Source of the DNA: an uncultured Clostridia bacterium | Lineage (GTDB): Bacteria; Bacillota; Clostridia; Christensenellales; UBA1242 | DNA: 61,895 nt | Direction: 5' to 3' | Assembly (NCBI GenBank): GCA_944362965.1 | Contig: CALVTR010000008.1 | Location: 1-61,895 of the forward strand | Shown: positions 18,143 to 37,903 of the stretch, piece by piece | Numbering within the stretch: the stretch's first letter is position 1 | Layout of the letters: the number at the start of each line of letters is the position of its first letter | Program-made: the position numbers and the translations under genes | Notes under the pieces: generated by a model | The model's database searches: none | What the model was told of the DNA's origin: nothing | What the model saw: only the letters and a program-made list of their open reading frames with translations

Positions 18143-18242
18143 GGGGCAAGCGAATGCGTGAAGTTTTGCTAAGAAAATTTCACAAGGACAATTTGATTGT
18201 CCTTAAAAAACTCGCATGCGAGTTTTTGCATTCGCTTGCCCC
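18143..18242. repeat. Fully paired four-way cloverleaf element, copy A (100 nt)
   Basis: P1 is a perfect 15-bp stem, GGGGCAAGCGAATGC at 18143-18157 with its complement at 18228-18242. Inside, with essentially no unpaired bases, sit P2 18158-18183 (GTGAA-TTTT / AAAA-TTCAC), P3 18184-18204 (9 bp, loop TTG) and P4 18206-18227 (10 bp, loop AT). The topology and size match the elements at 18849, 25731 and 37815 while the sequence of most stems differs. Transcribed or not is unknown. Confidence 0.75.
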
Positions 18243-18274
18243 TATTTTCTCAAGCGGTTGCTAAAAGATAGCAC

Positions 18275-18481
18275 TCAAAAGTCAGAGTTTCCAAGTAAAA
18301 AATCGATGCTAACATTAAAATATCTTGCAATTTTGATAAGCATATCAAAACTACATTCACGTTCGCCATTTTCCCAATATGATATAAGCCGCTCGCTGAT
18401 AAATAAGTCATTTGCGAGTTGTTTGCGTGAAATAGCTTTTTCTATTCTAAGTTCTTTTAACCTTTCTTTAAATTTATTCAT
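18275..18481 (-). CDS. XRE-family HTH regulator
   Basis: 68 aa. Single Cro/C1-type domain: 'LKELRIEKAISRKQLANDLFISERLISYWENGE' and 'DMLIKIARYFNVSIDFLLG'. There is no good ribosome site before ATG 18481. Two 13-bp inverted repeats (GAAC-N5-GTTC) just upstream are likely its own operators. It lies between cloverleaf copy A and the repeat-rich leader of the first RHH/LRR locus; whether it controls that locus is unknown. Confidence 0.85.
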   Translation of the reverse strand: MNKFKERLKELRIEKAISRKQLANDLFISERLISYWENGERECSFDMLIKIARYFNVSIDFLLGNSDF

Positions 18482-18493
18482 TTTTAAATTTTA

Positions 18494-18535
18494 GAACAAA
18501 AAGTTCCGAAAAACTCGACATAGAACATTTTGTTC
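18494..18535. promoter_or_regulatory. Two GAAC-N5-GTTC operators
   Basis: GAACAAAAAGTTC (18494-18506) and GAACATTTTGTTC (18523-18535), 29 nt apart centre to centre, immediately upstream of the XRE gene. LexA boxes have a 4-nt gap rather than 5, so XRE autoregulation is the better reading. Confidence 0.6.
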
Positions 18536-18597
18536 CATATAATTTATATAGAAAATTCAAATTTATGTATTAACTTTATAATATTGAGCTTTAAGCA

Positions 18598-18760
18598 GCC
18601 CATAAAGTGGCAGTGATAAACTAGGCGTTATTGATACACTAAACGACAAAAAGCGGATAATCCACTGGAACAAGTAAAAATAGGCGTTATAGATAGAAAA
18701 GACGATAGAAAGTGCCTAAGGCACAAAAATTTTTAAAAAAATTTAAAAAATTTGTTAAAA
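18598..18760. repeat. Hairpin-unit repeat region upstream of RHH copy 1
   Basis: Contains two copies of the unit (A)ACGAYARAAA followed by a short palindrome: GCGGATAATCCAC near 18651 and GTGCCTAAGGCAC near 18711. The palindrome stem varies while pairing is kept. No ORF is supported. Confidence 0.6.
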
Positions 18761-18764
18761 ATGC

Positions 18765-18796
18765 TTGACACGCGTTGCGGGGGGGGTGAGTAAACT
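18765..18796 (+). promoter_or_regulatory. Promoter with G-tract spacer, copy 1
   Basis: TTGACA (18765-18770) and TAAACT (18791-18796) are separated by 20 nt that include eight consecutive G. The spacer is 3 nt longer than optimal and the -10 is degraded, so this copy is probably off or weak compared with copies 2 and 3. Confidence 0.65.
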
Positions 18797-18848
18797 AATA
18801 GCATAAAGATAGACGCGATAGCGGCTATCGCGAGCGGCTTCGCCGCGA

Positions 18849-18937
18849 GAGAAGGCACGAATATTTTTGCTTGCAAAAATATTCAAGAAGGCAAAAATTC
18901 TTGCCTCCCAAAAGGCTAAAGCCTTTTGTGCCTTCTC
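18849..18937 (+). repeat. Four-way cloverleaf element, copy B (89 nt) in RHH leader
   Basis: P1 GAGAAGGCAC / GTGCCTTCTC (18849-18858, 18928-18937). P2 GAATATTTTTGC / GCAAAAATATTC (18859-18884, loop TT). P3 AGGCAA / TTGCCT (18889-18906). P4 AAAAGGC / GCCTTTT (18910-18927, loop TAAA). It lies between promoter and RHH start, so it would be in the 5' leader RNA. Compared with copy D, one P2 pair changes T-A to G-C on both sides. Confidence 0.75.
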
Positions 18938-18991
18938 ACGCCTGCAACAAAGCCCACTTGCAAAGATAAAGAATTAAACATAAGGAGAGAT

Positions 18992-19138
18992 ATGAAAGAA
19001 GAATATATAAGGTATACGCTTAGACTTACCAAAGAGCAGAACGAGCAACTGAAAAACTTAGCCAAGAAAAACGGCTTGACGTCAGCAGCAATGATTCGCT
19101 TTTTGATAATGCAGTTCATAAACAAACCAAATGTTTGA
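18992..19138 (+). CDS. Ribbon-helix-helix small DNA-binding protein, copy 1
   Basis: 48 aa, ATG 18992 with AAGGAGAGAT. The fold pattern is strand RYTLRL, helix A 'TKEQNEQLKNLAKKNG', turn L-T, helix B 'SAAMIRFLIMQFI', as in Arc/CopG-type dimeric repressors. About 80% identical to the copies at 25857 and 37947. All three share the upstream cloverleaf leader and are followed by a secreted LRR gene. It probably binds palindromic operators in the surrounding repeats; the target is inferred. Confidence 0.8.
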   Translation: MKEEYIRYTLRLTKEQNEQLKNLAKKNGLTSAAMIRFLIMQFINKPNV

Positions 19139-19265
19139 CGACTGTCCAATGTGCTGTACTGAAAAGATAAAATTTATTTTCGCTCTCTAATGCTAGTGGA
19201 AAAATCGCACAAGGCTAAGGGACACAAAAGTTGATAATATAAAAATTGAAAAGGAAGGTGACTTT

Positions 19266-20780
19266 ATGAGTTTAAAAATCAAATTGATATCATGTATATC
19301 ACTATTTATGCTTATGATAGGAGTTTTAATCATAGGCGTGTTTGCGGCTACTCAGCAGCAACTTACAATGCAGGGAAGCGTAAGCTTTAACGTTCCTGAT
19401 AAAAGTTTGTATGTGAAAGACGTTAGAATAAAGCAAGATATGGCATCAGAGCCTACATCAATAGATAGTTTTATGCCAGGGTACATAAATGGAGATTTCA
19501 CTTTAGACCTAACAGGAATATCAGATGAAAATAATTATGGATCATTCTCACTATACTTTGATATAATCAACACAACCGACATTCAGTGGACTATAACAAA
19601 AGTAGAACTGCCTACAACACTCACAAATGCAGGTGTGTCAGCAAGTTATAGCGGAGTGATACCAACAAACAATTTGACTGACACAGATGATGATGGCTAT
19701 AAAAACTTTGACGCGTCCACACCAATAGACGACTCGCTTATCTTAACCATCACCGCACCAAACTCCAGTACCATCAACCTTGAAGGAATAGTTATAACAA
19801 TTGATGATTATGTGCTACCAGTAGAAATATCTGTTTATACAAATGATGCAAACTTAGGCACTGTAACAGGTGGTGGAATGGTGACTACAGGTCAAGAAGT
19901 TTCAATTTCTGCTGATTTCACAGGAAGTGCAGATGCTGACTTCCTAGGCTGGAAGACAAATTTAGAAGATGACACTTTTGTTTCAACCTTACCAGAGTAT
20001 ACTTTCACTTGCACTGAAGAATTCCCAACAACCTATTATGCAATATTTGAAGAACCAAATTTATATTTAACTTTTGATAATCTAACAGAAGGAGAGGCTA
20101 GACTTCGTCGTTGTAAAGCAGGTGCAGTAGATATTATTGTTCCATCATCAATATATAGATCATCAGCCGCATATAACGTTACATCAATATATAGTATATT
20201 ATTGTCTAATTCTGGAGCTTTCTATCAAGCACATTCAACCCTTCAAAGTGTTCATTTACCAGAGACTATAACTAGTATTAGTGCTTCTACATTTTCTGGT
20301 TGTAGCGAACTTATAAGTATAACTATACCAGAAGGAGTATTAAGCATAGGAGATTTAGCCTTTTATCAATGTAACGGACTTACAAGTATAACCTTGCCAA
20401 GCAGCTTAACAAGAATTGGTGTTTCTGCTTTTGAGGGGTGCAGCGAACTTACTAAAATAACAATTCTAGGAGAAGTAACAAGTGTTGGGGATTATGCCTT
20501 TTATCAATGCAGCAGCCTTACAAGTATAACCATTCTAGAGAGTATAACAAGTATCGGGTTTGAAACTTTCTCTGGTTGTAGCAACTTAGCAACTATATAT
20601 ATAGAAAATTCAACAATAGCAAATGGAATAACAAGTTCAACATCATATGGGTATTTAACAAATTATGCTGACACACTATATATTAAAGACACAATCACAG
20701 TGACAAGTGTGCCAACTGGCTGGGTTGAAGATACTAGCGGAAGTGACGAAGCTGGTTATGTGAAATATATAAAAGGCTAA
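19266..20780 (+). CDS. Secreted BspA-like LRR surface protein 1
   Basis: 504 aa, GGAAGG before ATG 19266. The N-terminus (MSLKIKLISCISLFMLMIGVL...) is a signal peptide or anchor nearly identical to those at 26624 and 38713. Residues about 30-185 are a beta-rich domain with a DTDDDGYKNFD calcium-loop-like motif. About 190-270 is an InlB-type repeat (FLGW...TTYYAIF). About 285-460 are BspA/LRR_5 repeats with the core 'SITLPSSLTRIGVSAFEGCSELT'. The C-terminus is a short tail without a sortase motif. BspA-like proteins act in adhesion in gut and oral microbes. It lacks the 'TPPTLG...VPAESV' cap present in the other copies. Confidence 0.85.
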   Translation: MSLKIKLISCISLFMLMIGVLIIGVFAATQQQLTMQGSVSFNVPDKSLYVKDVRIKQDMASEPTSIDSFMPGYINGDFTLDLTGISDENNYGSFSLYFDIINTTDIQWTITKVELPTTLTNAGVSASYSGVIPTNNLTDTDDDGYKNFDASTPIDDSLILTITAPNSSTINLEGIVITIDDYVLPVEISVYTNDANLGTVTGGGMVTTGQEVSISADFTGSADADFLGWKTNLEDDTFVSTLPEYTFTCTEEFPTTYYAIFEEPNLYLTFDNLTEGEARLRRCKAGAVDIIVPSSIYRSSAAYNVTSIYSILLSNSGAFYQAHSTLQSVHLPETITSISASTFSGCSELISITIPEGVLSIGDLAFYQCNGLTSITLPSSLTRIGVSAFEGCSELTKITILGEVTSVGDYAFYQCSSLTSITILESITSIGFETFSGCSNLATIYIENSTIANGITSSTSYGYLTNYADTLYIKDTITVTSVPTGWVEDTSGSDEAGYVKYIKG

Positions 20781-20798
20781 AGAAATTATAAGCTATCA

Positions 20799-20838
20799 AA
20801 AAACTAGGGTGATTTTAAAAGCCCTAGTTTTTATTTTT
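20799..20838 (+). terminator. Rho-independent terminator
   Basis: AAAAACTAGGG / CCCTAGTTTTT stem plus T-run after LRR gene 1. Confidence 0.85.
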
Positions 20839-20885
20839 AAAATATTTTTATAGAAAGACAAAAATTATATAATTCAATTAAAAAG

Positions 20886-22490
20886 CTATTTTTTAGAAGA
20901 TGGTGAAAGATTTAATTCTCCTTCCTTATCTATTGTCATATTTTCGCTATTTGGCACAAGTGGAAGCCCTGGCATAAGTGATATTTTCCCAGCAATAACA
21001 ACTATAAAGCCAGCTCCATTTTTAAGTTCTATGTCTCGCACGTGAAGAGTGAAGTTTTGCGGCACGCCGAGCAGTTTATCGTCATCAGAGAGCGAGTATT
21101 GCGTTTTTGCAATGCATATAGGCATATCTTTTGCAAGTTTCTCAAATATTTTTATCTTTTCGACTGCCACAGGTGAGTATTCTACACTTGAAGCCCCATA
21201 TATATTTTTTGCAAGTGACAATATCTTTTCTTTTATAGTATCTTCAATGTTATAAGCAAATTTGAGCGGTGTGTTTTTCTTGTCGCATAGTGCTTTAACC
21301 TTTTTTGCAAGTTCGATGCAACCGTCTCCACCTTCAAGATAAGGAGAAGCAATCTCGGCAGAGCAGGCTATACTTTCGCAAAAGTTTTTTACTTTTTCTA
21401 AATCTGCATTGCTGTCGCCGTCAAACTTATTTATAGCAACTACTGTCTCTTTACCAAAAACCTTTCTAAAATTTTCTATATGTTTTCTAAGATTTTTAAG
21501 TCCGCCATTCAAACTTCCGTCTTGGCTATGAGCTTTCAAAGCCTTGATTGTTGCAACAATCACAACAACACTTGGGTTGAGGTTGTTTAGCCTGCACTTT
21601 AGGTCGATAAACTTTTCGCCGCCAAGATCACCGCCAAAGCCTGCTTCAGTGACAACATAGTCGCCAAGGCTAAGAGCATACTTTGTTGCAATCACCGAGT
21701 TGCAGCCGTGTGCAATATTGGCAAAAGGTCCGCCGTGCACAATGGCAGGTGTGCCTTCAAGCGTCTGCACAAGGTTAGGCTTTACTGCATCTTTTAAAAG
21801 TATAGCCATGGCATCTTGCGCCTTTAAGTCCCTGGCAAAAATAGGCTTTCCGTCCTTTGAAAAGGCAACTAAAATATTGCCAAGCCTTTGTTTTAAGTCT
21901 TCAAGGTCATTTGCAAGGCAAAGAATTGCCATAATCTCACTTGCCGCCGTGATAACAAAGCTATCTTTTCTTTCAACATTGTTTTTAAGTTTCTCTTGAG
22001 AAATGGTTATCTCTCGTAGAGCCCTATCGTTCATGTCCATACACCTGTGGAAAAGAATTTTGTTTTCATCAATATTAAGTGCGTTGCCGTGGAATAGGTG
22101 ATTGTCAATAAGGGCACAAAGCAGGTTGTTTGCCGATGTTATCGCGTGAAAGTCGCCTGTGAAATGCAGATTTATATCGTCACTAGGGGTAAGTGATGCC
22201 TTGCCGCCGCCTGTTGCCCCGCCTTTAACGCCAAAGACAGGTCCAAGTGATGGTTCTCTCAACGCAAGCACAGCATTTAAGCCAAGTTTTCTCATGCCGT
22301 CAGCAAGCCCTATAGAAATTGTGGTCTTGCCTTCTCCATACTTTGTTGGATTTATTGCCGAAACAAGAATTAACTTACCCTTAGGCTCTACCTTTTCCAG
22401 CTTAATCTTAGCTTTGTAGTTGCCATAAAGCTCTATATTTTCTTCATTTAGTCCGATTTTTTTTGCTATATCAATTATTTTTTCTGTCAT
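20886..22490 (-). CDS. fhs: Formate--tetrahydrofolate ligase
   Basis: 534 aa from ATG 22490, which has AGGAGATAAA upstream; an in-frame earlier codon at 22535 lacks a ribosome site. Key motifs: P-loop-like 'KYGEGKTTISIGLADGM', 'REPSLGPVFGVKGGATGGG', 'INLHFTGDFHAITSANNLL', 'FANIAHGCNSV', 'EAGFGGDLGGEKF'. It makes 10-formyl-THF from formate, ATP and THF in the cytoplasm, feeding one-carbon metabolism. Monocistronic; other folate genes are not adjacent. Slightly shorter than the usual 555 aa. Confidence 0.97.
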   Translation of the reverse strand: MTEKIIDIAKKIGLNEENIELYGNYKAKIKLEKVEPKGKLILVSAINPTKYGEGKTTISIGLADGMRKLGLNAVLALREPSLGPVFGVKGGATGGGKASLTPSDDINLHFTGDFHAITSANNLLCALIDNHLFHGNALNIDENKILFHRCMDMNDRALREITISQEKLKNNVERKDSFVITAASEIMAILCLANDLEDLKQRLGNILVAFSKDGKPIFARDLKAQDAMAILLKDAVKPNLVQTLEGTPAIVHGGPFANIAHGCNSVIATKYALSLGDYVVTEAGFGGDLGGEKFIDLKCRLNNLNPSVVVIVATIKALKAHSQDGSLNGGLKNLRKHIENFRKVFGKETVVAINKFDGDSNADLEKVKNFCESIACSAEIASPYLEGGDGCIELAKKVKALCDKKNTPLKFAYNIEDTIKEKILSLAKNIYGASSVEYSPVAVEKIKIFEKLAKDMPICIAKTQYSLSDDDKLLGVPQNFTLHVRDIELKNGAGFIVVIAGKISLMPGLPLVPNSENMTIDKEGELNLSPSSKK

Positions 22491-22642
22491 TTTATCTCCT
22501 AAATAATATTTTATCACAATAAAAGAAAATTGCAAAATGATATAATGCCCGCATTTGTCGCTTTCTATAATTAAAATAGGTTAAATTATTTTTATTTAAA
22601 AAATTATTTTTCAAACCTGCAAAAATGTGATATTATATTGTT

Positions 22643-23596
22643 ATGAACATGACGGACATTATTTTTCAGGCTAAAGCCTATCAGCTTATATGCCAAGAGA
22701 TTGCAAAGGGAACGCTTGCAAAGGCTGTGCTTATTATTTCTAAGGACAGCGTTTATGGCTATGAATTTGCAAAAATGGTGGCAGTTTCTCTTCTTAATAA
22801 TGGACAGCAGTTAAAAAACGAAAACTTCACTCGTGTTGAAATAGGCTCACACCCAGACGTTAAAACCTATCCACAAAAAGATAAACTTCTTGTAAGCGAT
22901 AGCGAAGAGATTGTGCTTGAAAGTTATGCTCTTCCTGTGCTTGCCGACAAAAAGATTTTTATTATCAAAGACTTTGACAACTCTATGGAAGCGGCGCAAA
23001 ACAAGCTTCTTAAAATACTAGAAGAGCCGCCGCATAACGTCTATTTTATTCTGACTTGTTCAAACTCAAACCTTGTGCTTCCAACGATAAGGTCAAGGTG
23101 TAATAAGTATGAGCTTGCAAAACTTTCGCAAGAGCTAATTGAAAAATATTTGCAAGGCAAAGACAACGCATCTCTTATCACTAGTCTTAGTGACGGCTAT
23201 ATTGGAAGAGCGGAGTTTTTATCTAAATTTAAAAATCTTCAACATCTCTTTGATAGCGTAGTTTCAGTGCTAACAAAGATGAAAACAAGCAAGCAAGTTC
23301 TTTTGTTTTCAAAAAATCTTTTGATGTATAAAGATAATTTCAGTCTTTTGATAGAAATCTTGTCACTTGCACTTGAAGATTTGCTTATCTTAAAAAGTGG
23401 TGGAAGCAATGTCCGCTTGCAGACAGTGAAACAAGATTTGATAAATGTGCAAGGCGAGTATAGCATAAGAGCTATTTGTGAAATTCAAAGTTTGCTTGAC
23501 AAGGCTGTGAAAGAGCAGTCTTACAACGGCAACGTCACACTTATAATAGAAAATTTATTGTTGAATATTTTGGAGGTTAAATTTATATGCAAGTAG
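22643..23596 (+). CDS. holB: DNA polymerase III delta' subunit (HolB-like)
   Basis: 317 aa. AAA+ clamp-loader subunit: 'HPDVKTYPQ', 'IVLESYALPVLADKKIFIIKDFDNSMEAAQNKLLKILEEPP', 'TIRSRC'. The Walker A is degenerate, as is normal for delta'. Synteny with ricT and trmN6 downstream is the Bacillota holB-yaaT-yabB arrangement. Extended -10 TGATATTAT (22628-22636) ends 6 nt before ATG 22643 and there is no Shine-Dalgarno sequence, so the message is probably leaderless. It overlaps ricT by 10 nt. Confidence 0.88.
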   Translation: MNMTDIIFQAKAYQLICQEIAKGTLAKAVLIISKDSVYGYEFAKMVAVSLLNNGQQLKNENFTRVEIGSHPDVKTYPQKDKLLVSDSEEIVLESYALPVLADKKIFIIKDFDNSMEAAQNKLLKILEEPPHNVYFILTCSNSNLVLPTIRSRCNKYELAKLSQELIEKYLQGKDNASLITSLSDGYIGRAEFLSKFKNLQHLFDSVVSVLTKMKTSKQVLLFSKNLLMYKDNFSLLIEILSLALEDLLILKSGGSNVRLQTVKQDLINVQGEYSIRAICEIQSLLDKAVKEQSYNGNVTLIIENLLLNILEVKFICK

Positions 23597-24393
23597 AAGT
23601 AGTTTCAGCAAAATTCCATAATGGTAGCCATAGCTATTCATTCAGTCCTAATGGACTTGACCTTCATCTGAATGATATGGTGATTGTGGAAACTGAAAAA
23701 GGCAAAGATATAGTTAAAATTGTTAAAGAAAAGGAACTTATTGACGAAGAAAAGTTGCCAGAGCCACTTAAAAATGTGTTAAAGGTGGCGGACGAGAAAG
23801 ATATTGCTATGGCGGAAGAGAACTATAAAAAGGCAGAAGCACTACTTCCGGAAGTTAAGGAAATTGTTAAAGAAGAAGGGCTTGAAATGAAGGTTATCAA
23901 TGTTGAGTGCAACTATAACTTCTCAAGGCTGACAATAAACTTTACCGCTGACAATAGGGTGGACTTCCGTGACCTTGTCAAAAAACTTGCCGATAAGTTT
24001 AAAACAAGGATTGAACTTCGTCAGATTGGACCACGTGACACCACAAGAATTTTAGGTGGGTATGGGCCATGCGGGCTTGAGTGCTGTTGCCATAAAGGGT
24101 TTGGCATAAATGACCATATCTCTATAAAAATGGCAAAAAATCAGGGGCTTAGTTTAAACCCGAACAGCATAAGCGGGCTTTGTGGGAAAATGCTTTGCTG
24201 TCTTGCCTATGAAAATCAATACTATGTTGACGTGCTTAAACTTATGCCTAAGGTTAATAGTGTGGTCAGCACTCCTGATGGGCAGGGCAAGGTTATGTAT
24301 AACGACCTTTTGAAACAAACTGTCACGGTTAAGTATGAAGATGAAGAATTTAGCGAGCTTAAGGAATACCCGCTTTCGGAAATTAAATTTTAA
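23587..24393 (+). CDS. ricT: PSP1-domain regulator RicT (YaaT)
   Basis: 268 aa. PSP1 C-terminal domain with 'TRIELRQIGPRDTTRILGGYGPCGLECCC' and 'ISGLCGKMLCCLAYE'. The cysteine cluster is the one that binds Fe-S clusters in RicT of Bacillus, where the RicAFT complex supports mRNA processing by RNase Y and phosphorelay events. GGAGG precedes ATG 23587. Overlaps holB. YabA, usually found between ricT and trmN6, is missing here. Confidence 0.92.
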   Translation: MQVEVVSAKFHNGSHSYSFSPNGLDLHLNDMVIVETEKGKDIVKIVKEKELIDEEKLPEPLKNVLKVADEKDIAMAEENYKKAEALLPEVKEIVKEEGLEMKVINVECNYNFSRLTINFTADNRVDFRDLVKKLADKFKTRIELRQIGPRDTTRILGGYGPCGLECCCHKGFGINDHISIKMAKNQGLSLNPNSISGLCGKMLCCLAYENQYYVDVLKLMPKVNSVVSTPDGQGKVMYNDLLKQTVTVKYEDEEFSELKEYPLSEIKF

Positions 24394-24586
24394 AGAACAC
24401 TTATAAAAGTCTTCTTTAAAATTTTTGAAAAAACCTTAGGGTTTTTCACGCTCGCTTGAAAAGCGAGCATTTCCGAAAGCGGCATTCCTTTTAAGCTCGC
24501 CATGTTTTCAAGCGGATTTATTATATGGTGCATTTGTCATTTAGTTATATCTATAAAAATATAGTTTGTCATGAAAGGAGTAATTT
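24394..24586. other. Spacer with hairpins between ricT and trmN6
   Basis: Contains AAAACCTTAGGGTTTTT (about 24430) and GCTCGCTTGAAAAGCGAGC (about 24450) hairpins. They may attenuate or process the operon message. This is the place where yabA is usually found. Confidence 0.4.
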
Positions 24587-25324
24587 ATGAAGGTTGAAAT
24601 TTTAAAAGATGAAAGGGTGGAAGATTTACAATGTGAAGGGCTTAAGATTATTCAAAATAAAAACTTTTATACCTTCACGTCAGACTCTGTGATACTTGCC
24701 AACTTTATAAAACTTAAGAAAACTGATAGATGTGTGGAAATTGGCACAGGTTGTGGCGTTATTTCAGTGCTTTTAAGTGCAAAAACGCAATTTGATAAGA
24801 TTTATGCCTTTGAACTACAAGACGAGATGGCTCGTCTTGCTGAAAAGAATGTGCTTTTAAATGACCTTCAAGATAAGATATCAGTTATCAGCGATGATGC
24901 CAGAAATTTCAAACAATATTTTCCACAAGAGTCCTTTGATGTGGTCTTTTCAAATCCGCCTTATATGCATTCAAGGTCGCCAAGAAATGCAAATCCTGTT
25001 GTTGATAAAGCTCGCCATGATGTAAGCCTTCCACTAAATGACCTTTGCTCCACCGCATATAGTATGTTAAAATTTGGTGGAAAATTCTATGTGGTTTACA
25101 CCGCAACGCGTTCAGCCGAACTAATTTATGCCCTTATGCAAAACAACCTAGAGCCTAAAAGAATGTTTTTCACAGAGAACGGTAAAGGCAAGGTTGTGCT
25201 TGTTGTGATTGAAACTGTCAAGGGTGGCAAGCATGGCGTTGAAGTTTTGCCGCAGCTTGAAACAAATGATTTAAACGGCGAATATCTAAAGGTTTTGCAC
25301 ACAAAATTTTTAAAAAGAGATTAA
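24587..25324 (+). CDS. trmN6: tRNA1(Val) adenine-N6 methyltransferase-like (TrmN6/YabB)
   Basis: 245 aa. SAM-dependent N6-adenine methyltransferase: 'FTSDSVILANFIKLKKTDRCVEIGTGCGVISVLLS' (motif I) and the catalytic NPPY with 'NPPYMHSRS' (about residue 125). 'ANPVVDKARHDVSLPLNDLC' is characteristic of the YfiC/YabB group that modifies A37 of tRNA. GAAAGGAG lies before ATG 24587. Position after ricT supports the assignment. Confidence 0.85.
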   Translation: MKVEILKDERVEDLQCEGLKIIQNKNFYTFTSDSVILANFIKLKKTDRCVEIGTGCGVISVLLSAKTQFDKIYAFELQDEMARLAEKNVLLNDLQDKISVISDDARNFKQYFPQESFDVVFSNPPYMHSRSPRNANPVVDKARHDVSLPLNDLCSTAYSMLKFGGKFYVVYTATRSAELIYALMQNNLEPKRMFFTENGKGKVVLVVIETVKGGKHGVEVLPQLETNDLNGEYLKVLHTKFLKRD

Positions 25325-25372
25325 TATATTTTAATAAAAATTGAATAGAAAAATATAATCAAATAATTTAAT

Positions 25373-25416
25373 AAAACAAGAGATTACGAAGTTTATTTTA
25401 AGTCTCTTGTTTTTTT
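25373..25416 (+). terminator. Rho-independent terminator of the holB operon
   Basis: AAACAAGAGA / TCTCTTGTTTTTTT, about 50 nt after the trmN6 stop. Confidence 0.8.
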
Positions 25417-25730
25417 ATGCACTTATCCACATAAAGAAGCTATCCACAAAAGGTAAAAAAACAAAAAAGTTATCAATAGTGGAACAAACAAAATTTGCAT
25501 TATAGATACATAAAACGACAGAAAGCGGATAATCCGCAAAATTTTTCAAAAAAATTTTTAAAAAATGCTTAAAATTTGTTGACAAGGGTTGCGGAGGGGG
25601 TATACTAATAGCAAAAGATGGACATACTATGTCCATCGCGAGCGGCTTTGCCGCAGAGAGCGGAAACGAAGTTTGAGTTTCTGACTTGCCATGTCGGACA
25701 GTCGTCAAACATTTGGTTTGCCGCGAGTGT
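25417..25730. repeat. Repeat-rich leader of RHH copy 2
   Basis: Carries the ACGACAGAAA unit with palindrome GCGGATAATCCGC (about 25512-25533), the hairpin GATGGACAT-ACT-ATGTCCATC (about 25618-25640), GCGGC-TTT-GCCGC, and CAAAC-ATTTG-GTTTG (25706-25720). These are the same classes of unit as in the other two loci. No ORF is supported. Confidence 0.65.
25579..25606 (+). promoter_or_regulatory. Promoter with G-rich spacer, copy 2
   Basis: TTGACA (25579-25584), 16-nt spacer ending in GGAGGGGG, TATACT (25601-25606). The G-run is interrupted by A and shorter than in the other copies. Confidence 0.75.
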
Positions 25731-25815
25731 GAGAAGACATGTGCATTTTTTCAAAATGAACAAGAAGGCAAAAGTCTTTGCCTTCTGAAAGGCTTATCAG
25801 CCTTTATGCCTTCTC
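25731..25815 (+). repeat. Four-way cloverleaf element, copy C (85 nt)
   Basis: P1 extends to 19 positions (25722-25740 with 25806-25824; one T-G wobble, one A-C mismatch). P2 25741-25761 GTGCATTTT/AAAATGAAC. P3 25763-25786 is a perfect 10-bp AGAAGGCAAA/TTTGCCTTCT. P4 25788-25805 AAAGGC/GCCTTT. Only isolated bases are unpaired. It sits 41 nt before the RHH start. Confidence 0.75.
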
Positions 25816-25856
25816 GCACTCGCGACAAAACTCGCTCGCAAAATGGGTAGGAGAAT

Positions 25857-26470: not shown

Positions 26471-26471
26471 T

Positions 26472-26623: not shown

Positions 26624-28147
26624 ATGAGTTTAAAAGTCAAATTAATTTCATGTATATCACTATTTATGCTTATGATAGGGGTGCTAATCATAGGCATGTT
26701 TGCAGCAACGCAACAACAACTTACAATGAAAGGTAGCGTAAGCTTTGTTGTGCCTGATAAGAGTCTGTATGTGAAAGAAGTTAGGATAAAGCAAGACATG
26801 GTATCAGAGCCTGAGAGTATAAGCAGTTTTATGCCAGGATACATAAATGGTGAGTTTAACTTGGATTTGACAGGAATAACCGACGTCAACACCTATGGCT
26901 CTTTTACCTTGTATTTTGATATTATAAACACAACAGAAAGCTATTGGCAAATAGCGGACGTGGATTTAGGAGACCTAACAAATGACGGTGTGTCAGAAGA
27001 GCATGGTGGAATAGTAAGAGTGAATGAATTAATAGACACGGATGATGATGGCTATAAAAACTTTGACCCTTCAACTCCAATAGACGGCACACTGACTTTA
27101 ACAATCATAGCACCAAATGTAGACGCAGACAATCCTGTTGTTTTAGATGGAATAGTTTTCACAATAAATGTATTTACACCACCAATGGTTGAGACAATAG
27201 TAGTAGGGCAAACAGCTACCGGAGAGATGCTAGGCACAGCTGAAAGTGGAGGCTATGCAATGGTTGGAGAAGAAGTCACCTTGCATGCAGGCTTTACAGG
27301 CAATGCAGATGCCGATTTCTTAGGTTGGAGAGCAGGAAGTGAAACAGGAGAACTTGTATCAACTCTTACAGACTATAACTTCACCTTCACAGAGAATTCA
27401 CCAACAACCTATTATGCAATATTTGAAACAGCAAATAGTAATTTGACATATCGTTATACCACTTCATCAGGCACAGCAAGTGTATCAGATTGCGTTACAA
27501 GTGCAACTGAAGTAACAATCTCATCAGCAATATATAGAACTTCCCGTTTACCTTATGAATTTAGTGTGACAAGTATAGGTGATGGTGCTTTCAATGGTTG
27601 CACTAGTTTAACAAATATAACAATTCCATCAAGCGTGACAAGTATAGGCAGTGGTGCTTTCTCTAGTTGTAGTGAACTTGAAGCAATAATAGTAGAAGAA
27701 GGAAATACAGTATATCATAGTGATGGGAATTGCTTAATAGAAACGGCAAGTGGAACGCTTATTGTAGGTTGCAAAAATTCAGTAATGCCAACAGATGGAA
27801 GTGTGACAAGTATAGGTGAAAGTGCTTTCTCTGGTTGCAGTGGACTCACAAGTATAGCAATTCCAAACAGTGTGACAAGTATAGGTAATTCTGCTTTCTA
27901 TGGTTGCAGTAGTTTAACAAGTATAGAAATTCCAGATAGCGTGACAAGTATAGGAGCTCAAGCTTTCTATGGTTGCAGTGGGTTAAGAACAATAATAATC
28001 AATGCGATAGAACCGCCGACACTTGGAAGCAGCGCAATAGATACCAGATATGTAACAGAAATTCTTGTTCCTGCAGAGAGTGTTGCAGATTATCAGAGTG
28101 CAAGTGGTTGGGCAGATTTTGCAGATATAATTTCTGCTATTGCATAA
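26624..28147 (+). CDS. Secreted BspA-like LRR surface protein 2
   Basis: 507 aa, GAAGGAGAA before ATG 26624. Signal/anchor at residues about 5-28; the N-terminal beta domain, DTDDDGYKNFD loop and FLGW...TTYYAIF repeat are closely related to protein 1. The LRR block has repeats 'SIEIPDSVTSIGAQAFYGCSGL'. It ends in a cap 'IIINAIEPPTLGSSAIDTRYVTEILVPAESVADYQSASGWADFADIISAI' that recurs in protein 3 and, diverged, in the integrative element's LRR protein. Codons in the LRRs are repetitive (GTGACAAGTATAGG), favouring recombination between copies. Confidence 0.87.
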   Translation: MSLKVKLISCISLFMLMIGVLIIGMFAATQQQLTMKGSVSFVVPDKSLYVKEVRIKQDMVSEPESISSFMPGYINGEFNLDLTGITDVNTYGSFTLYFDIINTTESYWQIADVDLGDLTNDGVSEEHGGIVRVNELIDTDDDGYKNFDPSTPIDGTLTLTIIAPNVDADNPVVLDGIVFTINVFTPPMVETIVVGQTATGEMLGTAESGGYAMVGEEVTLHAGFTGNADADFLGWRAGSETGELVSTLTDYNFTFTENSPTTYYAIFETANSNLTYRYTTSSGTASVSDCVTSATEVTISSAIYRTSRLPYEFSVTSIGDGAFNGCTSLTNITIPSSVTSIGSGAFSSCSELEAIIVEEGNTVYHSDGNCLIETASGTLIVGCKNSVMPTDGSVTSIGESAFSGCSGLTSIAIPNSVTSIGNSAFYGCSSLTSIEIPDSVTSIGAQAFYGCSGLRTIIINAIEPPTLGSSAIDTRYVTEILVPAESVADYQSASGWADFADIISAIA

Positions 28148-29667: not shown

Positions 29668-29709
29668 AAAAATAAAATACTTACGTTTTATTTTTGCTTT
29701 AATTTTTAC

Positions 29710-32384: not shown

Positions 32385-32535
32385 GAAAAATCCTCTTTAA
32401 TAAGTATAGTAATTTTTAGGATTTTTTCATAGTAATTTTATAATTTTGTCAATATTTTTTATAATGTTTTGCTCTTTTTCATAAAGTATGCTAAAATACT
32501 ATGGAACAATTTTAATAACATTTAAGGAGTATATA

Positions 32536-33408
32536 ATGAGTAAAATAGCAATAGTAACAGACAGCAATGCAGGAATTTCACAAAAGAAAGCACAGGAACT
32601 AGGCTGTGTTTATGTTATTCCTATGCCATTTACAATAGACGGAGAAGAGTATTTTGAAGATATAAACCTGTCGCAAGAAGAGTTCTATCAAAAACTCACA
32701 AATGATGCAGATATCTCAACATCTCAGCCAGCTATTGGCGGTATCACAGAACTATGGGACAGGCTTTTAAAAAGTTATGACTATATTTTGCATATTCCTA
32801 TGTCTAGTGCACTTAGTATGTCCTGCGAGACTGCTAAGAATTTTGCAAAGGACTATAATGGCAAGGTGCTTGTTGTTGACAATAAAAGGATTTCAGTCAC
32901 ACAAAAGCAATCTGTTCTTGATGCTTTAACACTTATAAAGCAAGGTAAGACCGCACAAGAGATTTATGAAGTTTTAGTTGAAACTGCAGCTGATTCAAGC
33001 ATATATATCATGGTTGACACGCTTAAATATCTTAAGAAGGGTGGAAGGGTCACACCAGCGGCTGCCGCTATAGGAACAGTGCTTGGAATCAAACCTGTTC
33101 TTCAAATTCAAGGTGGCAAACTTGACAGCTTTGCAAAGGTGAGAAGTGAAAAAGTTGCAAAAAATAAGATGATTGAAGCAGTTAAAAACGACCTTAAAAC
33201 ACGCTTTAAAGAATATTATGAAAATGGTGAAATGGAGCTTTTTATGGCTTACACAAATTGCCATGACAAGATTATGCAGTTTACAGAAGAAGTAAAAAAG
33301 GCTTTTCCTGATGTCACACTTACGCACATTGACCCGCTTTCACTCAGTGTATCATGTCATATCGGCAGTGGTGCAATCGCCATTGCTTGTTGCAGAGTTT
33401 TGAAATAA
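32536..33408 (+). CDS. DegV family fatty-acid-binding protein
   Basis: 290 aa from ATG 32536 (TTAAGGAGTATATA upstream); the earlier codon at 32488 lies within the promoter (TAAAAT). 'KIAIVTDSNAGISQKKAQELG', 'SQPAIGGITELWDRLL', 'IPMSSALSMSCETAKNFA', 'DTLKYLKKGGRVTPAAAAIGTVLGIKPVLQ' and C-terminal 'HIGSGAIAIAC' define DegV/FakB-type proteins that bind a fatty acid. FakB partners with the kinase FakA, which is not in this window. Followed 12 nt later by an SDR gene, so likely one operon. Confidence 0.92.
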   Translation: MSKIAIVTDSNAGISQKKAQELGCVYVIPMPFTIDGEEYFEDINLSQEEFYQKLTNDADISTSQPAIGGITELWDRLLKSYDYILHIPMSSALSMSCETAKNFAKDYNGKVLVVDNKRISVTQKQSVLDALTLIKQGKTAQEIYEVLVETAADSSIYIMVDTLKYLKKGGRVTPAAAAIGTVLGIKPVLQIQGGKLDSFAKVRSEKVAKNKMIEAVKNDLKTRFKEYYENGEMELFMAYTNCHDKIMQFTEEVKKAFPDVTLTHIDPLSLSVSCHIGSGAIAIACCRVLK

Positions 33409-33420
33409 AAAAGGTGAAAT

Positions 33421-34227
33421 ATGAAAAATAAACTTAAGGGCAAGGTTGCCGTTATAACAGGTGCAAGCAGCGGTATAGGCTTTTCAATAGCAAAGTATTT
33501 TAATAAATATGGTATCATTGTCTATGATATATCAAGAACAATAAAAGAGCATTCCGAAATTAAGTCTGCTTGCAGCTGTGATGTCAATGCCACCGAGAAG
33601 ATTGACAATATTTTGAAAGAAATATTTGAAAAAGAAAAACATATTGATATCTTTGTAAACAATGCAGGTTTTGGTATTGCTGGAGCGATTGAAAACGCAA
33701 AACCTGAGAATATCTATGCTATCACAAACACCAATCTTGCTGCCGTTATGGCGCTAAGCGGACTGGCTGTTAAATATCTAAAGGCGAGCGGTGGTGGAAA
33801 TATAATCAACATCTCATCAGTTGGCGGCGTTATACCACTTCCTGTGCAAGCTGCTTATAGTGCAACAAAGGCAGGCGTTGAAGTCTTTTCACGCGCTCTT
33901 GCAAATGAAGTCAAACCTTATAAGATTAAGGTCACCACAATCTTGCCAGGCGACACAAAAACTTCCTTCACATCTTCAAGAATAATTGACAACGAGGGCA
34001 ACACAAAAGAGCAAGAGAAGATTGCAAAATCCATTAAAAAGGTTGAAAAAGACGAACAAACAGGAAAAAGTCCAGACACGGTGGGCAGGGCGGCTGTTAA
34101 AATTTTGAAAAAGAAAAACCCGCCACTAAGAAAGACCATAGGCTTTTTCTATAAATGCGCAGTATTTCTTCCAAGGATTTTGTCAACTAAACTTGTAAAT
34201 TATATAGTTAGAAAATTGTATCTATAA
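33421..34227 (+). CDS. Short-chain dehydrogenase/reductase
   Basis: 268 aa. Rossmann motif GASSGIGFSI (TGxxxGxG, about residue 14), NNAG (about 80), catalytic S...YSATK (Ser about 139, Tyr about 152, Lys about 156) and 'LPGDTKTSF'. NAD(P)-dependent oxidoreductase with unknown substrate. AAGGTG before ATG 33421. The pairing with DegV and the long basic, hydrophobic C-terminus (FFYKCAVFLPRIL) would fit a lipid-related, membrane-associated role (inference). Confidence 0.88.
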   Translation: MKNKLKGKVAVITGASSGIGFSIAKYFNKYGIIVYDISRTIKEHSEIKSACSCDVNATEKIDNILKEIFEKEKHIDIFVNNAGFGIAGAIENAKPENIYAITNTNLAAVMALSGLAVKYLKASGGGNIINISSVGGVIPLPVQAAYSATKAGVEVFSRALANEVKPYKIKVTTILPGDTKTSFTSSRIIDNEGNTKEQEKIAKSIKKVEKDEQTGKSPDTVGRAAVKILKKKNPPLRKTIGFFYKCAVFLPRILSTKLVNYIVRKLYL

Positions 34228-34260
34228 TAAAAATTTTAAATTTTATTTTAGATTTAAAAT

Positions 34261-34309
34261 AAAAAACTTTATCTTATAAACCTATCGTTTAATTTGATAA
34301 AGCTTTTTT
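34261..34309. terminator. Bidirectional terminator
   Basis: AAAAAACTTTATC / GATAAAGCTTTTTT between convergent SDR and yitT genes. Confidence 0.75.
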
Positions 34310-34311
34310 CT

Positions 34312-35352
34312 TTATTCGGATTTTTTATAGCAAAGATATTTCTTTTTTCTTTTTAGTATTTTTTCTTTTGTGACCTTTGTTTTTATTGAATATTTATTTT
34401 TTGTTTTTAAAATATTTTTGGCATTTGTAACCTTATGTTTAAATATAGAAGCTTCCATCATAAAGTTGCCATCGCCTAAAGTTTCTGAAACAGCTGAAGA
34501 AAAAACAAAAGCGTTTTCATCAATCTCTTTGATAAGTTTTTTCATTTCGTGGGCTTGTCCTTTCGGAATAAGTGAAAGAAGCATTGCTTTTTCCTTGTGA
34601 GAGAACATCCCTTCTGCATCAATTTTAGTCACTCCGCGATGGAATTTATTTAAAATAGCTTCTGCAACTTCTTTATCTTTGTCGCAAATAATATAGAAAG
34701 ACACCACGCGTTTTGAGTCGTCAAGCACAAGATTAGTTGCCATAGAACTTATAATTGTCATAATAAGTGCATAAAGACCAATATATAAACTTCCCGTTGA
34801 GATAACACTTAAAACAATAACTACTGCATTTATGCCGAGCAGGCAATAGCCTGTTTTAATTGCAGGGAAAAACTTGTTAATAAGTGCACCTAGAACATCG
34901 CTTCCGCCAGTAGAGCCACCATATCGCAGTGCAAGCCCAATAGTCAGTCCCATTATCATACCACCAACGATACAATAAAGAAGTAGGTCGGCATTTTCAA
35001 CATCCGCAAGTCCAGGTATTGCTCCAAATTGCATGCTGAGTGTATAACAACCTATTCCAACACCTGATAGAATAAGAAACTTCCAACCAAAAACCTTAAG
35101 AGCAACAGCAAATAAAATAACGTTGATAACAAGATAGATGACGGATGTTGGTATGTTTATGTCACCCATTAAAAACAAATTATGCACAACTAAAGAAAAG
35201 CCTGAAATGCCCGTAGGGATTATTCCAACGGACTCAAAAAATGTTTTAAAAGCAGTGCCACCTAAAAGTCCAGCAAAGGCAATAATAAGAATTTGCATAA
35301 TAAATTTGGCAACATTTTTATTTATTTTTTTATTTTTCGTTTTATTATTCAT
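34312..35352 (-). CDS. YitT family membrane protein (DUF161/DUF2179)
   Basis: 346 aa. Five to six hydrophobic segments ('IIAFAGLLGGTAFKTFFESVGIIPTGISG', 'YGGSTGGSDVLGALINKFFP'), then the cytoplasmic DUF2179 domain 'RVVSFYIICDKDKEVAEAILNKFHRGVTKIDAEGMFSHKEKAMLLSLIPK'. Putative transporter of unknown substrate. A very basic tail (LKRKKKYLCYKKSE) extends beyond the usual end. Own AT-rich promoter region; weak ribosome site. Confidence 0.88.
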   Translation of the reverse strand: MNNKTKNKKINKNVAKFIMQILIIAFAGLLGGTAFKTFFESVGIIPTGISGFSLVVHNLFLMGDINIPTSVIYLVINVILFAVALKVFGWKFLILSGVGIGCYTLSMQFGAIPGLADVENADLLLYCIVGGMIMGLTIGLALRYGGSTGGSDVLGALINKFFPAIKTGYCLLGINAVVIVLSVISTGSLYIGLYALIMTIISSMATNLVLDDSKRVVSFYIICDKDKEVAEAILNKFHRGVTKIDAEGMFSHKEKAMLLSLIPKGQAHEMKKLIKEIDENAFVFSSAVSETLGDGNFMMEASIFKHKVTNAKNILKTKNKYSIKTKVTKEKILKRKKKYLCYKKSE

Positions 35353-35482
35353 AATTAAGAATATATCATTTTTTATAAATTTTTAAAAATAAATTAGCAA
35401 TTTTTTTATTATTTTTGATAATTTTTTGATATTTATTTTAATTTATTGACTTATTTTTTAAATTATTGTATACCTTATATAT

Positions 35483-36406
35483 ATGGAAAAGTGTTTGTTT
35501 ATTTATAATCCACTAAGTGGCAAGGGAAAGGTTGCCAAAAATGAGAGCAGGATTGTCAAGATGCTTGAAAGTAAATTTATTGTTGACGTGCACCGCTCAA
35601 AATATAGTGGTAATATTGGAGAAGTAGTCAGTGAAAAAGGGGATGGCTACGATATCATTGTCATCTCCGGCGGCGATGGCACATTGAATGAAGCGATAAA
35701 TAGTATTGCACGACTTGAAAAAAGAGTAAAAATTGGCTATATCCCTGCAGGAACAGTGAATGACGTTGCTCATAGTTTGGGAATACCGCGCAGCATAAAA
35801 AAGGCAGTCCAAAATATTCTTGACGGGCAGGAATTTAAGCATGATATTTTCAGAATGAATGATAGATTCGGCATCTATGTATGTTGCTCAGGGCTCTTCA
35901 CCGAAACAAGTTATGCAACCGACCAAAACCAAAAGAAGAAGATTGGCAAGGTCGCCTATGCGCTTTATGGGGCAAAAAAAATTTTCACAACGCCTGCTGT
36001 TAAATTGAAACTTAACTATGATGGTGGCGAGATTGAAGGTAAATATGCACTTATGCTTATTTTAAACTCAAAGAGCGTTGCCGGCTTTAAAGTAAATAGA
36101 CATGCTGAACTAAACGACGGGCTTGTTGACGTTGTTTTAATCAAAACAAATAAAGATAAGGTGAATTTTCCTGCCGTTTGCCGTGTTGCAAAATTTTTTC
36201 TAAAAGGTGTTGAGCATAAATATAACAAAAATATTCAACATTTGCAACTTGATAAATTTAGAATTGAAACCCAGTCAGATACTATCATAAACCTTGATGG
36301 AGAAAAGATAGGAAAGGGTAGTTTTGATTTTGAAGTTATAAAAGAAGGGGTAACGATAATTGTGCCTAATTTGAAAAAATTGACTAAAAAAGTTGAAAAT
36401 ATTTGA
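35483..36406 (+). CDS. Diacylglycerol kinase family lipid kinase (YegS/DgkB-like)
   Basis: 307 aa. 'FIYNPLSGKGKV', 'ISGGDGTLNEAINSI' (the GGDGTxNE catalytic loop), 'GYIPAGTVNDVAHSLGIPR' and C-terminal 'INLDGEKIG'. ATP-dependent phosphorylation of diacylglycerol or a related lipid at the membrane. TTGACT-N17-TATACC (35469-35474) ends 8 nt before ATG 35483 and there is no ribosome site: a third probably leaderless gene. Confidence 0.9.
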   Translation: MEKCLFIYNPLSGKGKVAKNESRIVKMLESKFIVDVHRSKYSGNIGEVVSEKGDGYDIIVISGGDGTLNEAINSIARLEKRVKIGYIPAGTVNDVAHSLGIPRSIKKAVQNILDGQEFKHDIFRMNDRFGIYVCCSGLFTETSYATDQNQKKKIGKVAYALYGAKKIFTTPAVKLKLNYDGGEIEGKYALMLILNSKSVAGFKVNRHAELNDGLVDVVLIKTNKDKVNFPAVCRVAKFFLKGVEHKYNKNIQHLQLDKFRIETQSDTIINLDGEKIGKGSFDFEVIKEGVTIIVPNLKKLTKKVENI

Positions 36407-36447
36407 TTTTTTAGGTAAATTTTTATAAATTTTCGCATTTTTAAATC

Positions 36448-36482
36448 AAAAAAGCTGAGATTTTTTACTCAGCTTTATTTTT
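36448..36482. terminator. Terminator overlapping the merR 3' end
   Basis: AAAAAAGCTGAG / CTCAGCTTT stem with A and T tracts, between convergent lipid kinase and MerR genes; the MerR stop lies inside it. Confidence 0.75.
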
Positions 36483-36929
36483 TGTCATTTTGTGCAAGGT
36501 ATCAATATATTCATTTGCGTCATGCTTAAAAGAATAAATAGGGTCAGCATCTATCGATTTTGCATTTTCAATTTTTAGTAAATCTTGATAGATGGCAAGT
36601 TTGAAATTGATGCGTTTTGTGCTGTCATTCAAAAATTCAATCTGTGCTTTTATATCAGCCTTTAATTTTTGCAACATTTGATATCGCTCGTTAAGTGTGC
36701 TGTCGCCTTGCTTGCATAGGGCGATATATTTTGCAATATCAGCTATTTTCATTCCGCATTGCTTTAAACACTCAATGGTCAAAAGCCATTCTATATCTTC
36801 ATCCTTAAATTGCCGAGTTCCTGACGCAGTTTTCTCCACAAATGGAAGCAAGCCTTCTTTATCATAATATCTAAGTGTTGAAGCCGGCACACCTAAAACC
36901 TTTGATATTGTTTGAATAGAGTATCTCAT
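36465..36929 (-). CDS. MerR family regulator, AdhR/NmlR-like
   Basis: 154 aa. N-terminal winged helix 'YSIQTISKVLGVPASTLRYYDKEGLLPFVEKT', then 'WLLTIECLKQCGMKIADIAKYIALCKQGDSTLNERYQML', which is typical of the AdhR/NmlR group that senses aldehydes or electrophiles, and a dimerisation coiled coil. AAGGA before ATG 36929. The only visible promoter with a matching MerR dyad is that of the hydrolase at 45665, a candidate target. Effector unknown. Confidence 0.85.
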   Translation of the reverse strand: MRYSIQTISKVLGVPASTLRYYDKEGLLPFVEKTASGTRQFKDEDIEWLLTIECLKQCGMKIADIAKYIALCKQGDSTLNERYQMLQKLKADIKAQIEFLNDSTKRINFKLAIYQDLLKIENAKSIDADPIYSFKHDANEYIDTLHKMTKNKAE

Positions 36930-37009
36930 AAAAATAAATCCTTTTTCTTTATTTAAACTTAACTTTAATCTTTATTAGTATATCAAACAAAACAAATTCC
37001 TGTCAAATA

Positions 37010-37293
37010 AAACGAACCTAACGCTCGGCGGCAAACTTAGTTTGCATCAACGTCCGGCAGTGTGAGAATAAGAGACAAACTATATTTCCGCTCTCTTGGA
37101 ACTGATAAGCTTAACATTATAGACAAACTACACGATAGGAAGCGGATAATCCGCCCGCTCTCTTGGAACTCAAAAACTCAGTTTATAGACACACTGGACG
37201 ATAATATGCGGATAATTCGCCAAACCTAGTTTGCATCATTGTCCGGCAGAGCGAGTTGGTAGTATAAACTTTAACACCACTCTTATGTAAATC
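37010..37293. repeat. Hairpin-module repeats upstream of RHH copy 3
   Basis: Contains CAAAC-TTA-GTTTG (about 37026), the direct 75-nt module 37088-37162 bounded by CCGCTCTC, a second partial module, GCGGATAATTCGC (about 37200) and CAAAC-CTA-GTTTG (about 37222). The module is the reverse complement of 26229-26304 with scattered differences. No ORF is supported. Confidence 0.65.
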
Positions 37294-37590
37294 GCAAAAT
37301 CCACCCCTTGCGGGTCCTTATTAAGACAAAAATTTAGAAAATTTTTGCCTGGGGTGGAAAGGGAGTTTTAACCCACAAAGTCAGAGACTTTGCGGGAACC
37401 CAAGTTGGGAGGAAAACTGAAGCAATAGCTATTAATCTTGAGAGCGGAGAAAGAGTTTAATCTTAGGCTTGATTTGCCGGACAATCGCCAAGCATTTGGC
37501 TTGTGCCCGCGTTCTCCATTCTAGGAGTTCGAAAAAATTAAAAGTCCAAACCCTTTAATTTTTTCGAAAATGTTTTGGTGTTACCCCAAT
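37294..37590 (+). other. Structured element related to the LRR-3 leader, copy 1
   Basis: Order: ACCCCTTGCGGGT hairpin, AAATTT-type hairpin, GGGGTGGAAAGGGAG, CCCACAAAGT-CAGAG-ACTTTGCGGG, CCCAAGTTGGGAGG, a CAAGC-ATTTG-GCTTG unit (37489-37503), then a 13-bp stem CGAAAAAATTAAA / TTTAATTTTTTCG, then TTTTGGTGTTACCCCAATATA. The same order recurs at 38335-38698 directly before LRR gene 3. Confidence 0.65.
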
Positions 37591-37656
37591 ATAAACGACA
37601 AAAAGTGGCTAAGCCACAAAAAATTTAAAATTTTTTAAAAAATTTGTTAAATTTGC

Positions 37657-37686
37657 TTGACGTGGGTTGCTGGGGGGGGGTATACT
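37657..37686 (+). promoter_or_regulatory. Promoter with poly-G spacer, copy 3
   Basis: TTGACG (37657-37662), 18-nt spacer ending in nine consecutive G, TATACT (37681-37686). Closest of the long G-tract copies to functional spacing. Confidence 0.7.
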
Positions 37687-37814
37687 AATAGCATAAAGAT
37701 AGACGCGGCAAGCGGCTATCGCGAGCGGGCGGCAGACCGCTGACGCGGGAGTGAAAAGTGAAGAATGAAAAGTGAAAAGAGCATGCGGGAAATGATGCAA
37801 ACTGAGTTTGCCGC

Positions 37815-37903
37815 GAGAAGGCACGAATAGTTTTGCTTGCAAAACTATTCAAGAAGGCAAAAGTCTTTGCCTTCTAAAAAACTTACAGTTTTTGTGCCTT
37901 CTC
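37815..37903 (+). repeat. Four-way cloverleaf element, copy D (89 nt)
   Basis: P1 GAGAAGGCAC / GTGCCTTCTC (37815-37824, 37894-37903). P2 GAATAGTTTTGC / GCAAAACTATTC (37825-37850). P3 AGAAGGCAAA / TTTGCCTTCT (37852-37875). P4 AAAAAC / GTTTTT (37877-37893). Relative to copy B, P2 has one compensated pair change and P4 two (GGC/GCC becomes AAC/GTT). Confidence 0.75.

Follow-up and report, generated by a model that had tools for sequence, protein, structure and literature searches.

Four-armed cloverleaf elements as a dispersed, mostly intergenic class in a Clostridia bacterium of the genus UBA1242

The window analyzed here, a stretch of 61,895 nucleotides (nt) that is contig C8 of the 1.37 Mb genome of an uncultured Clostridia bacterium (genus UBA1242; the host, G000), carries four-armed cloverleafs: elements in which a single strand is predicted to pair almost completely, as a closing stem (P1) that holds three hairpins (P2–P4), a layout resembling a Holliday junction. 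Cloverleafs of this architecture occur in many dispersed copies, with compensated stems, free loops and pairing that is almost entirely Watson–Crick, and most of the slots that could be compared one to one are kept between two species. The four cloverleafs from which the analysis started belong to this large class. The explanation we favor, at close to an even chance, is that its members are intergenic DNA elements selected for the shape of a four-way junction.

Cloverleafs of the window

A sequence-only reading had described four cloverleafs (copies A–D, Table 1), and all four are confirmed: each shows, on either strand, the closing stem and its three hairpins, with RNA z-scores of −4.8 to −11.3 and none of 200 shuffles as stable (RNA folding). 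With DNA parameters, and with C and D taken a little more widely, z lies between −7.0 and −12.8 for these four and for a fifth copy, at 24361–24490, that had been overlooked. A mechanical scan of both strands, which was not told of the elements, recovers the same five, with folds of −40 to −65 kcal/mol; the best match in a shuffled window is no lower than −28.2. Three shuffled copies of the window, scanned with the least strict settings used, yielded 7, 6 and 8 poor matches, and under those settings the real window has some poor ones as well.

The same reading had called the elements fully paired and almost free of unpaired nucleotides, to which there are corrections: copy B folds with one unpaired junction base on the minus strand and with seven on the plus strand, and copy C (25731–25815) has one mismatch in P1 and one in P2, with P1 extending to 18 bp at 25722–25824. 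The stem differences that had been read between copies B and D, T-A to G-C and GGC/GCC to AAC/GTT, are present. The left end of the fifth copy overlaps the end of an open reading frame (ORF) of the PSP1 family (23587–24393), and in the sister species the slot of copy B holds a cloverleaf of another class (L205:8381–8473; loci are given by stretch and position).

Copy number, architecture and persistence

A similarity search with positions 37600–38300 of the window gave 86 matches in the host genome, and 28 of 31 stretches around such matches hold at least one cloverleaf, many with arms unlike those of the window. The scan behind these counts is sequence-blind and was applied to stretches of the host genome and of relatives. 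Twenty further host stretches (387 kb), most picked regardless of elements and a few near matches of the covariance model R1, gave 17 matches, 16 after removal of one unlike match. All host stretches together gave 65 matches, 61 of them kept, in 607,387 b, of which about a quarter is the window or had been selected because it resembles copy D; the sister species (G041) gave 41, 40 of them kept, in 739,178 b, with several stretches selected by model matches. Removed before counting were L050:375, L060:2637, L052:2379 and L120:2296 in the host, which do not resemble the cloverleaf class, and L218:16719 in G041, which resembles tRNA genes. Dinucleotide shuffles gave no match, either in the strict scan (40 stretches) or in a somewhat looser one (all 92 stretches). 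Models R1 and R2 mark 59 distinct places in the host genome, 75 once the scan matches are added. A different repeat, some 105 bases long (GCATTAGCGGTTAGCCGTTAGGCGTG...) and folding with a 17-bp hairpin, lies outside the cloverleaf class (L050:375–480, L060:2637–2742, L120:2296–2400).

A filter on perfection of pairing, which is independent of composition and does not use energy, retains 13 cloverleafs in 387 kb of the host and 36 in 739 kb of G041. The same filter leaves 3 in 332 kb of congener stretches chosen by weak matches, a single one in the 383 kb from other congeners (in G082, flagged earlier by R1), none in 80 kb of eight relatives from the order and none in 100 kb of E. coli. Loose settings do give coincidental matches (5 in the 100 kb of E. 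coli, 1 in the 80 kb of order relatives), none of which survives the stricter filter. When branched elements with any number of arms were sought in 60 host and G041 stretches, 58 of 62 had exactly three hairpins, four had two and none had more; the same scan of other congeners and order relatives (796 kb) gave 17, 11, 3 and 1 with two, three, four and five hairpins, respectively. In the predicted folds, 102 of 112 elements have 0–3 unpaired junction bases, and host elements are 85–134 b long with a P1 of 10–33 bp. The middle hairpin carries an insertion or nested structure at L129:5328–5459, L189:2239–2366 and L059:3212–3647, the L129/L189 case being syntenic between the two species.

Placement is mostly intergenic, with some elements inside or overlapping mechanically called ORFs, mainly short ones; the longest such ORF has 415 amino acids (aa) (L047), and its start was possibly called too early. 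The gaps that bear elements are codirectional in 65 cases, convergent in 12 and divergent in 17, against 212, 66 and 58 among other gaps of at least 150 b (p = 0.31), so that the gene arrangement around the elements is like that of other gaps.

Further copies exist in related genomes. The two covariance models were built from subsets of the sequences with a hand-written structure; R2 represents the GGAAGT class, whose closing stem reads CGGAAGT, whose first hairpin is rich in GC and whose last hairpin has AAAATTTTTAA. R1 matches 7 of 112 genomes of the genus and R2 matches 38, the host included, and 23 of the 24 R2 loci examined within the genus fold as cloverleafs, the exception being L269. 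In the order set R2 matches 6 of 151 genomes, four of them of the genus, and in the class set 7 of 291, three of them of the genus; the matches outside the genus (two order and four class genomes) are weak, with five loci giving no cloverleaf and two a poor one under looser settings. Similar closing stems (GGGAAGAT...) with one very long arm were seen in two other congeners (L236:439–560, L240:13539–13669).

The stems covary, as had been claimed from the window copies. An alignment of 43 sequences of the GGAAGT class has a covariation score of 0.764, against 0.177 (standard deviation 0.010) for shuffled alignments and at most 0.132 for slid controls; double changes occur in 32 of 33 pairs, and 98.0% of 1394 cells are paired, a percentage that leans towards the structure because the alignment was fitted to that of the model. 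RNAalifold on a mixed MAFFT alignment recovers P4 alone, because palindromic arms misalign in it.

The sister species, an uncultured Clostridia bacterium (isolate BRZ_CF__bin29, G041), is evidently the same as G067 of the same genus, the two giving identical matches. In the part of its genome that was covered, 22 host elements have a tight syntenic place with both sides kept, and 19 of these places hold a cloverleaf; four of the 19 map to one RHH slot, so that in one-to-one slots the count is 15 of 18. The reverse count, from G041 to the host, is 16 of 17, the exception facing L059 with its larger nested structure. Among the aligned stem pairs of the 15 ortholog pairs, 512 of 578 are unchanged, and the 66 changed ones comprise 47 double Watson–Crick changes (30 transitions, 17 transversions), 15 changes with a wobble and only 4 mismatches, although the arms were defined by folding, which favors paired states. 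Identity between the species is 76% in stems and 46% in loops and junctions, with a mean of 71% over whole elements, 51% in intergenic flanks and 41% in shuffled flanks; stems are thus constrained and loops are free. Some orthologous arms have diverged heavily and are still paired (lowest pair identity 0.44). In the orthologs L119:4587–4678 and L203:14094–14187, the closing stem and P4 are shared while P2 is a very different hairpin, in which a pair-by-pair alignment still finds 58% of aligned pairs identical. Compensated conservation of stems in fixed slots points to a present role and not to a dead element.

Competing explanations and neighboring features

An RNA under selection should tolerate G-U pairs on its own strand, whereas a DNA fold should be indifferent to strand. 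In 112 oriented elements G-U wobbles make up 84 of 4907 pairs (1.7%). For 65 elements between codirectional genes, folding the sense strand gives 45 such pairs (of 2906) and folding the antisense strand gives 54 (binomial p = 0.42). Cloverleafs also occupy divergent gaps (17 of 94), and no U-run follows the sense 3′ end, the 12 nt downstream having fractions of 0.42 A and 0.31 T (n = 34). Taken together, G-U pairs that are rare and no commoner in sense, occupied divergent gaps and the missing U-run argue for a constraint on DNA. The sequence-only reading had offered three functions, an RNA switch read by an RHH protein, a DNA cruciform for a junction-resolving enzyme and a selfish hairpin family; a four-way structure of DNA fits best, and the RHH-read switch finds no support.

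Several observations weigh against selection on a DNA junction. The fold is a prediction, made by computation alone, and both the fitted alignment and the ortholog arms favor paired states, as said above. RuvC is present in 20 of 20 genomes checked, element-rich or element-poor, and does not track the elements; most of the other congeners sampled have few strict cloverleafs; and three of the 18 one-to-one slots have no cloverleaf in G041, L119:12017 facing decayed sequence, L134:11009 poorly aligned sequence and L040:2693 a doubtful place. The GGAAGT class, defined together with its orientation after inspection of the data, lies on the strand opposite the codirectional genes around it in 22 of 26, or 14 of 17 after orthologs and one duplicate were collapsed by hand (one-sided p = 0.006), and with orthologs uncollapsed it lies in one sense relative to GC skew in 26 of 32; other classes have no clear bias (same/opposite: GCGAATG 13/12, AGAAGGCA 2/6, the rest 7/5). 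Terminator-like sites outside the element occur in 5 of 31 codirectional gaps bearing elements, and such sites occur in 88 of 194 others (p = 0.003), a comparison in which the masking of elements shortens the sequence scored. The bias and the scarcity of terminator-like sites could link the elements to transcription or replication; the bias itself may come from transcription, from the direction of replication or from insertion that prefers one strand.

These last observations are what a transcribed structure, such as an intercistronic mRNA stabilizer, a decay barrier or an unusual terminator, can claim for itself, along with the few copies in promoter-like leaders. We nevertheless consider it improbable: the wobble counts, the divergent gaps and the bare 3′ end stand against it, and Rfam 15, run on the window and 14 loci, has no family above threshold at any element, the only ones at elements being two sub-threshold microRNA matches, both in L053. 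A plain intrinsic terminator was rejected, since no U-run follows the sense-strand hairpin. The narrower proposal of a switch in the leader of an RHH gene, read by the RHH protein, started from a correct observation, namely that three copies lie 40–55 nt before an RHH start (B 54, C 41 and D 43 nt by the original end coordinates; start codons at 18992, 25857 and 37947). A motif search finds six RHH genes in the host stretches, of which four directly follow a cloverleaf (B, C, D and one in L049), while for the other two (L056, L059) the closest upstream cloverleaf is more than 500 nt away, and 57 of 61 host elements are not directly followed by an RHH gene. Moreover, the RHH slot and related promoter leaders that lack an RHH gene hold cloverleafs of different classes, with different arm sequences, at the same position, which makes the RHH gene appear an incidental neighbor. 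With G-U pairs showing no sense bias and thus no RNA-strand signature, the RHH-linked switch was rejected as a general account and has, in our view, next to no chance of being right.

Of the explanations that need no RNA, one holds that the arms are a mutational by-product, perfected by template switching at quasi-palindromes without selection. The 17 transversions among the 47 double changes and the ortholog arms that differ strongly and still pair would suit it, but exactly three hairpins in 58 of 62 elements, a sequence consensus by arm, and stems that evolve more slowly than loops and flanks, which correction alone should not bring about, make it very improbable. The main rival is an old non-autonomous mobile family that moved as folded single-stranded DNA, like repetitive extragenic palindromes (REPs) with TnpA_REP or the ends of IS200/IS605, and is now mostly static, its folded arms having once been recognized by an enzyme that the richest genomes no longer have. 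Similarity limited to the element is found at unrelated sites (L131:1553 and L132:9779, 82% over 109 bp), the flanks differ around nearly identical cloverleafs, a single slot can carry differing ones, and a consensus is common to many loci and to the 38 of 112 congeners. Lagging-strand targeting, which is established for IS608-like elements, predicts a bias of orientation relative to gene direction and GC skew such as the one seen. Y1_Tnp (PF01797) matches 8 of 20 congeners, six of the ten element-rich and two of the ten element-poor ones (Fisher p = 0.17), which leans towards this reading; several of the Y1-type transposase matches (L289–L294) are cut short or carry stops. Against it, Y1_Tnp has no match in G000 and G067, the two richest genomes, nor in G077 (11 R2 matches) and G093; a Y1 transposase was rejected on this ground, its being commoner in rich than in poor genomes notwithstanding. 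A cargo-bearing parent, sought in the host and G041 stretches as distant arms with cargo between them, gave 8 matches, none convincing, and there is no clean empty site, the three cloverleaf-less slots aligning with decayed or doubtful sequence. Stems conserved above their flanks and compensated in shared slots are not expected of a dead element, and they are, like the stable slots, unlike an element that is hopping at present. The selfish hairpin family of the sequence-only reading is, in this older form, unlikely in our view but a serious contender.

Two further inquiries touch on mobility and host proteins. Searches by blastn of phage and plasmid collections, with one element per collection, gave no match. 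Loss of SbcD, a nuclease acting on palindromes, was considered as a permissive cause and set aside, the host having a sub-cut-off SbcD match like many congeners.

Table 1. Cloverleafs and neighboring features of the window. Strand (-) for a copy denotes the family orientation.
Feature	Position	Strand	Remarks
Copy A	18143..18242	(-)	GCGAATG class; P1 15 bp, three hairpins; ortholog cloverleaf in sister species L205:7546-7648
Promoter-like TTGACA / TAAACT, spacing 20	18765..18796	(+)	copy B leader; consensus match only
Copy B	18849..18937	(-)	AGAAGGCA class; flanked by promoter-like site and RHH gene
RHH-like ORF, 48 aa	18992..19138	(+)	RHH_1 21.2 bits (cut-off 20.5); apparently incidental neighbor
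Fifth copy	24361..24490	(-)	GGAAGT class; P1 21-22 bp; 69.8 bits; ortholog L205:13700-13836
Promoter-like TTGACA / TATACT	25579..25606	(+)	copy C leader; consensus match only
Copy C	25722..25824	(-)	AGAAGGCA class; P1 18 bp with mismatch; absent among model R1 matches
RHH-like ORF, 47 aa	25857..26000	(+)	likeness to first RHH ORF; no Pfam family above cut-off; apparently incidental neighbor
Promoter-like TTGACG / TATACT	37657..37686	(+)	copy D leader; consensus match only
Copy D	37813..37905	(-)	AGAAGGCA class; limits preferred over 37815-37903
RHH-like ORF, 47 aa	37947..38090	(+)	likeness to first RHH ORF; apparently incidental neighbor

Further downstream of the three RHH-like ORFs lie genes for BspA-type leucine-rich-repeat proteins (19266–20780, 26624–28147 and 38713–40875), and the regions before them have promoter-like sites, a leader and repeats that are common to many other places in the genome. 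Near leucine-rich-repeat genes there are short, degenerate repeats built around CGGACAGTCGTCAAACATTTGG, after which GAGCGG...ATAAAGTTT often comes; in the window they stand at 19127, 25695, 26135, 26362, 37478, 38155 and 38583, and they are also found at L035:2500–2990.

Relation to known systems and meaning

REPs are small palindromes of 20–40 bp. Together with the related bacterial interspersed mosaic elements (BIMEs) and with TnpA_REP, they are among the closest known systems (abstracts of PMC3733652 and PMC8266576): the cloverleafs are likewise dispersed, intergenic, palindromic and present in many copies per genome, but they are 85–134 b long in the host, four-armed and largely free in sequence, and the richest genomes have no Y1 match, although a past link to a Y1 transposase of REP type is possible given its lean towards element-rich congeners. 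Miniature inverted-repeat transposable elements (MITEs) share the terminal inverted repeat (P1 in the cloverleafs), the lack of coding capacity and the dispersal; in the cloverleafs the interior is also fully paired, as three hairpins, most slots are kept between two species, and no parent element was found in the parts of the host and G041 genomes searched. Integron attC sites resemble them in that the DNA fold counts above the sequence and orientation is strand-specific, but an attC site is one imperfect hairpin with extrahelical bases, whereas the cloverleafs have four nearly perfect arms. The inverted terminal repeats of adeno-associated virus are also branched, fully paired DNA, but they are three-way and lie at virus ends, while the cloverleafs are four-way, chromosomal and intergenic. 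Cis-regulatory RNAs of the kind held in Rfam share the covarying stems and, for some copies, a place in leaders, and are set apart by the nearly pure Watson–Crick pairing of the cloverleafs, which have no sense preference for G-U and no family above threshold. What the cloverleafs share with a Holliday junction is four helices that are predicted to meet with few unpaired bases.

The sequence-only reading knew of no described class that matches, and our searches agree with it as far as they reach: besides the Rfam result, we found no description of a four-armed intergenic class in what we saw of the literature in PubMed Central (PMC13155455 and PMC2267715 included), outside which most subscription papers lie. 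REPs, MITEs and attC sites, taken from general descriptions and abstracts, each differ from the cloverleafs in at least one of the respects named above.

If the cloverleafs are indeed selected as DNA junctions, one strand would fold in vivo, either under negative supercoiling or while it is the lagging-strand template, and a host protein that binds or processes junctions would be the reader; the element might then act as a site of the nucleoid or of supercoiling, or as a mark for recombination or replication. A bolder version, possible but doubtful, is that these are chromosomal elements defined by shape, about 75–100 ready-made four-way junctions per genome, which are kept by Watson–Crick compensation and read by a junction-binding protein that organizes, marks or recombines the chromosome.

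Compensatory evolution is the classic sign of a functional RNA. Here, compensatory change at dozens of sites lacks the G-U signature expected of an RNA strand and so points to a folded shape of DNA in a bacterial chromosome as what is selected; tests of covariation can thus flag DNA elements as RNA. If this is true, a standing role of cruciforms in the cell could be put to a direct test, for which natural variants exist in decayed, swapped and compensated form.

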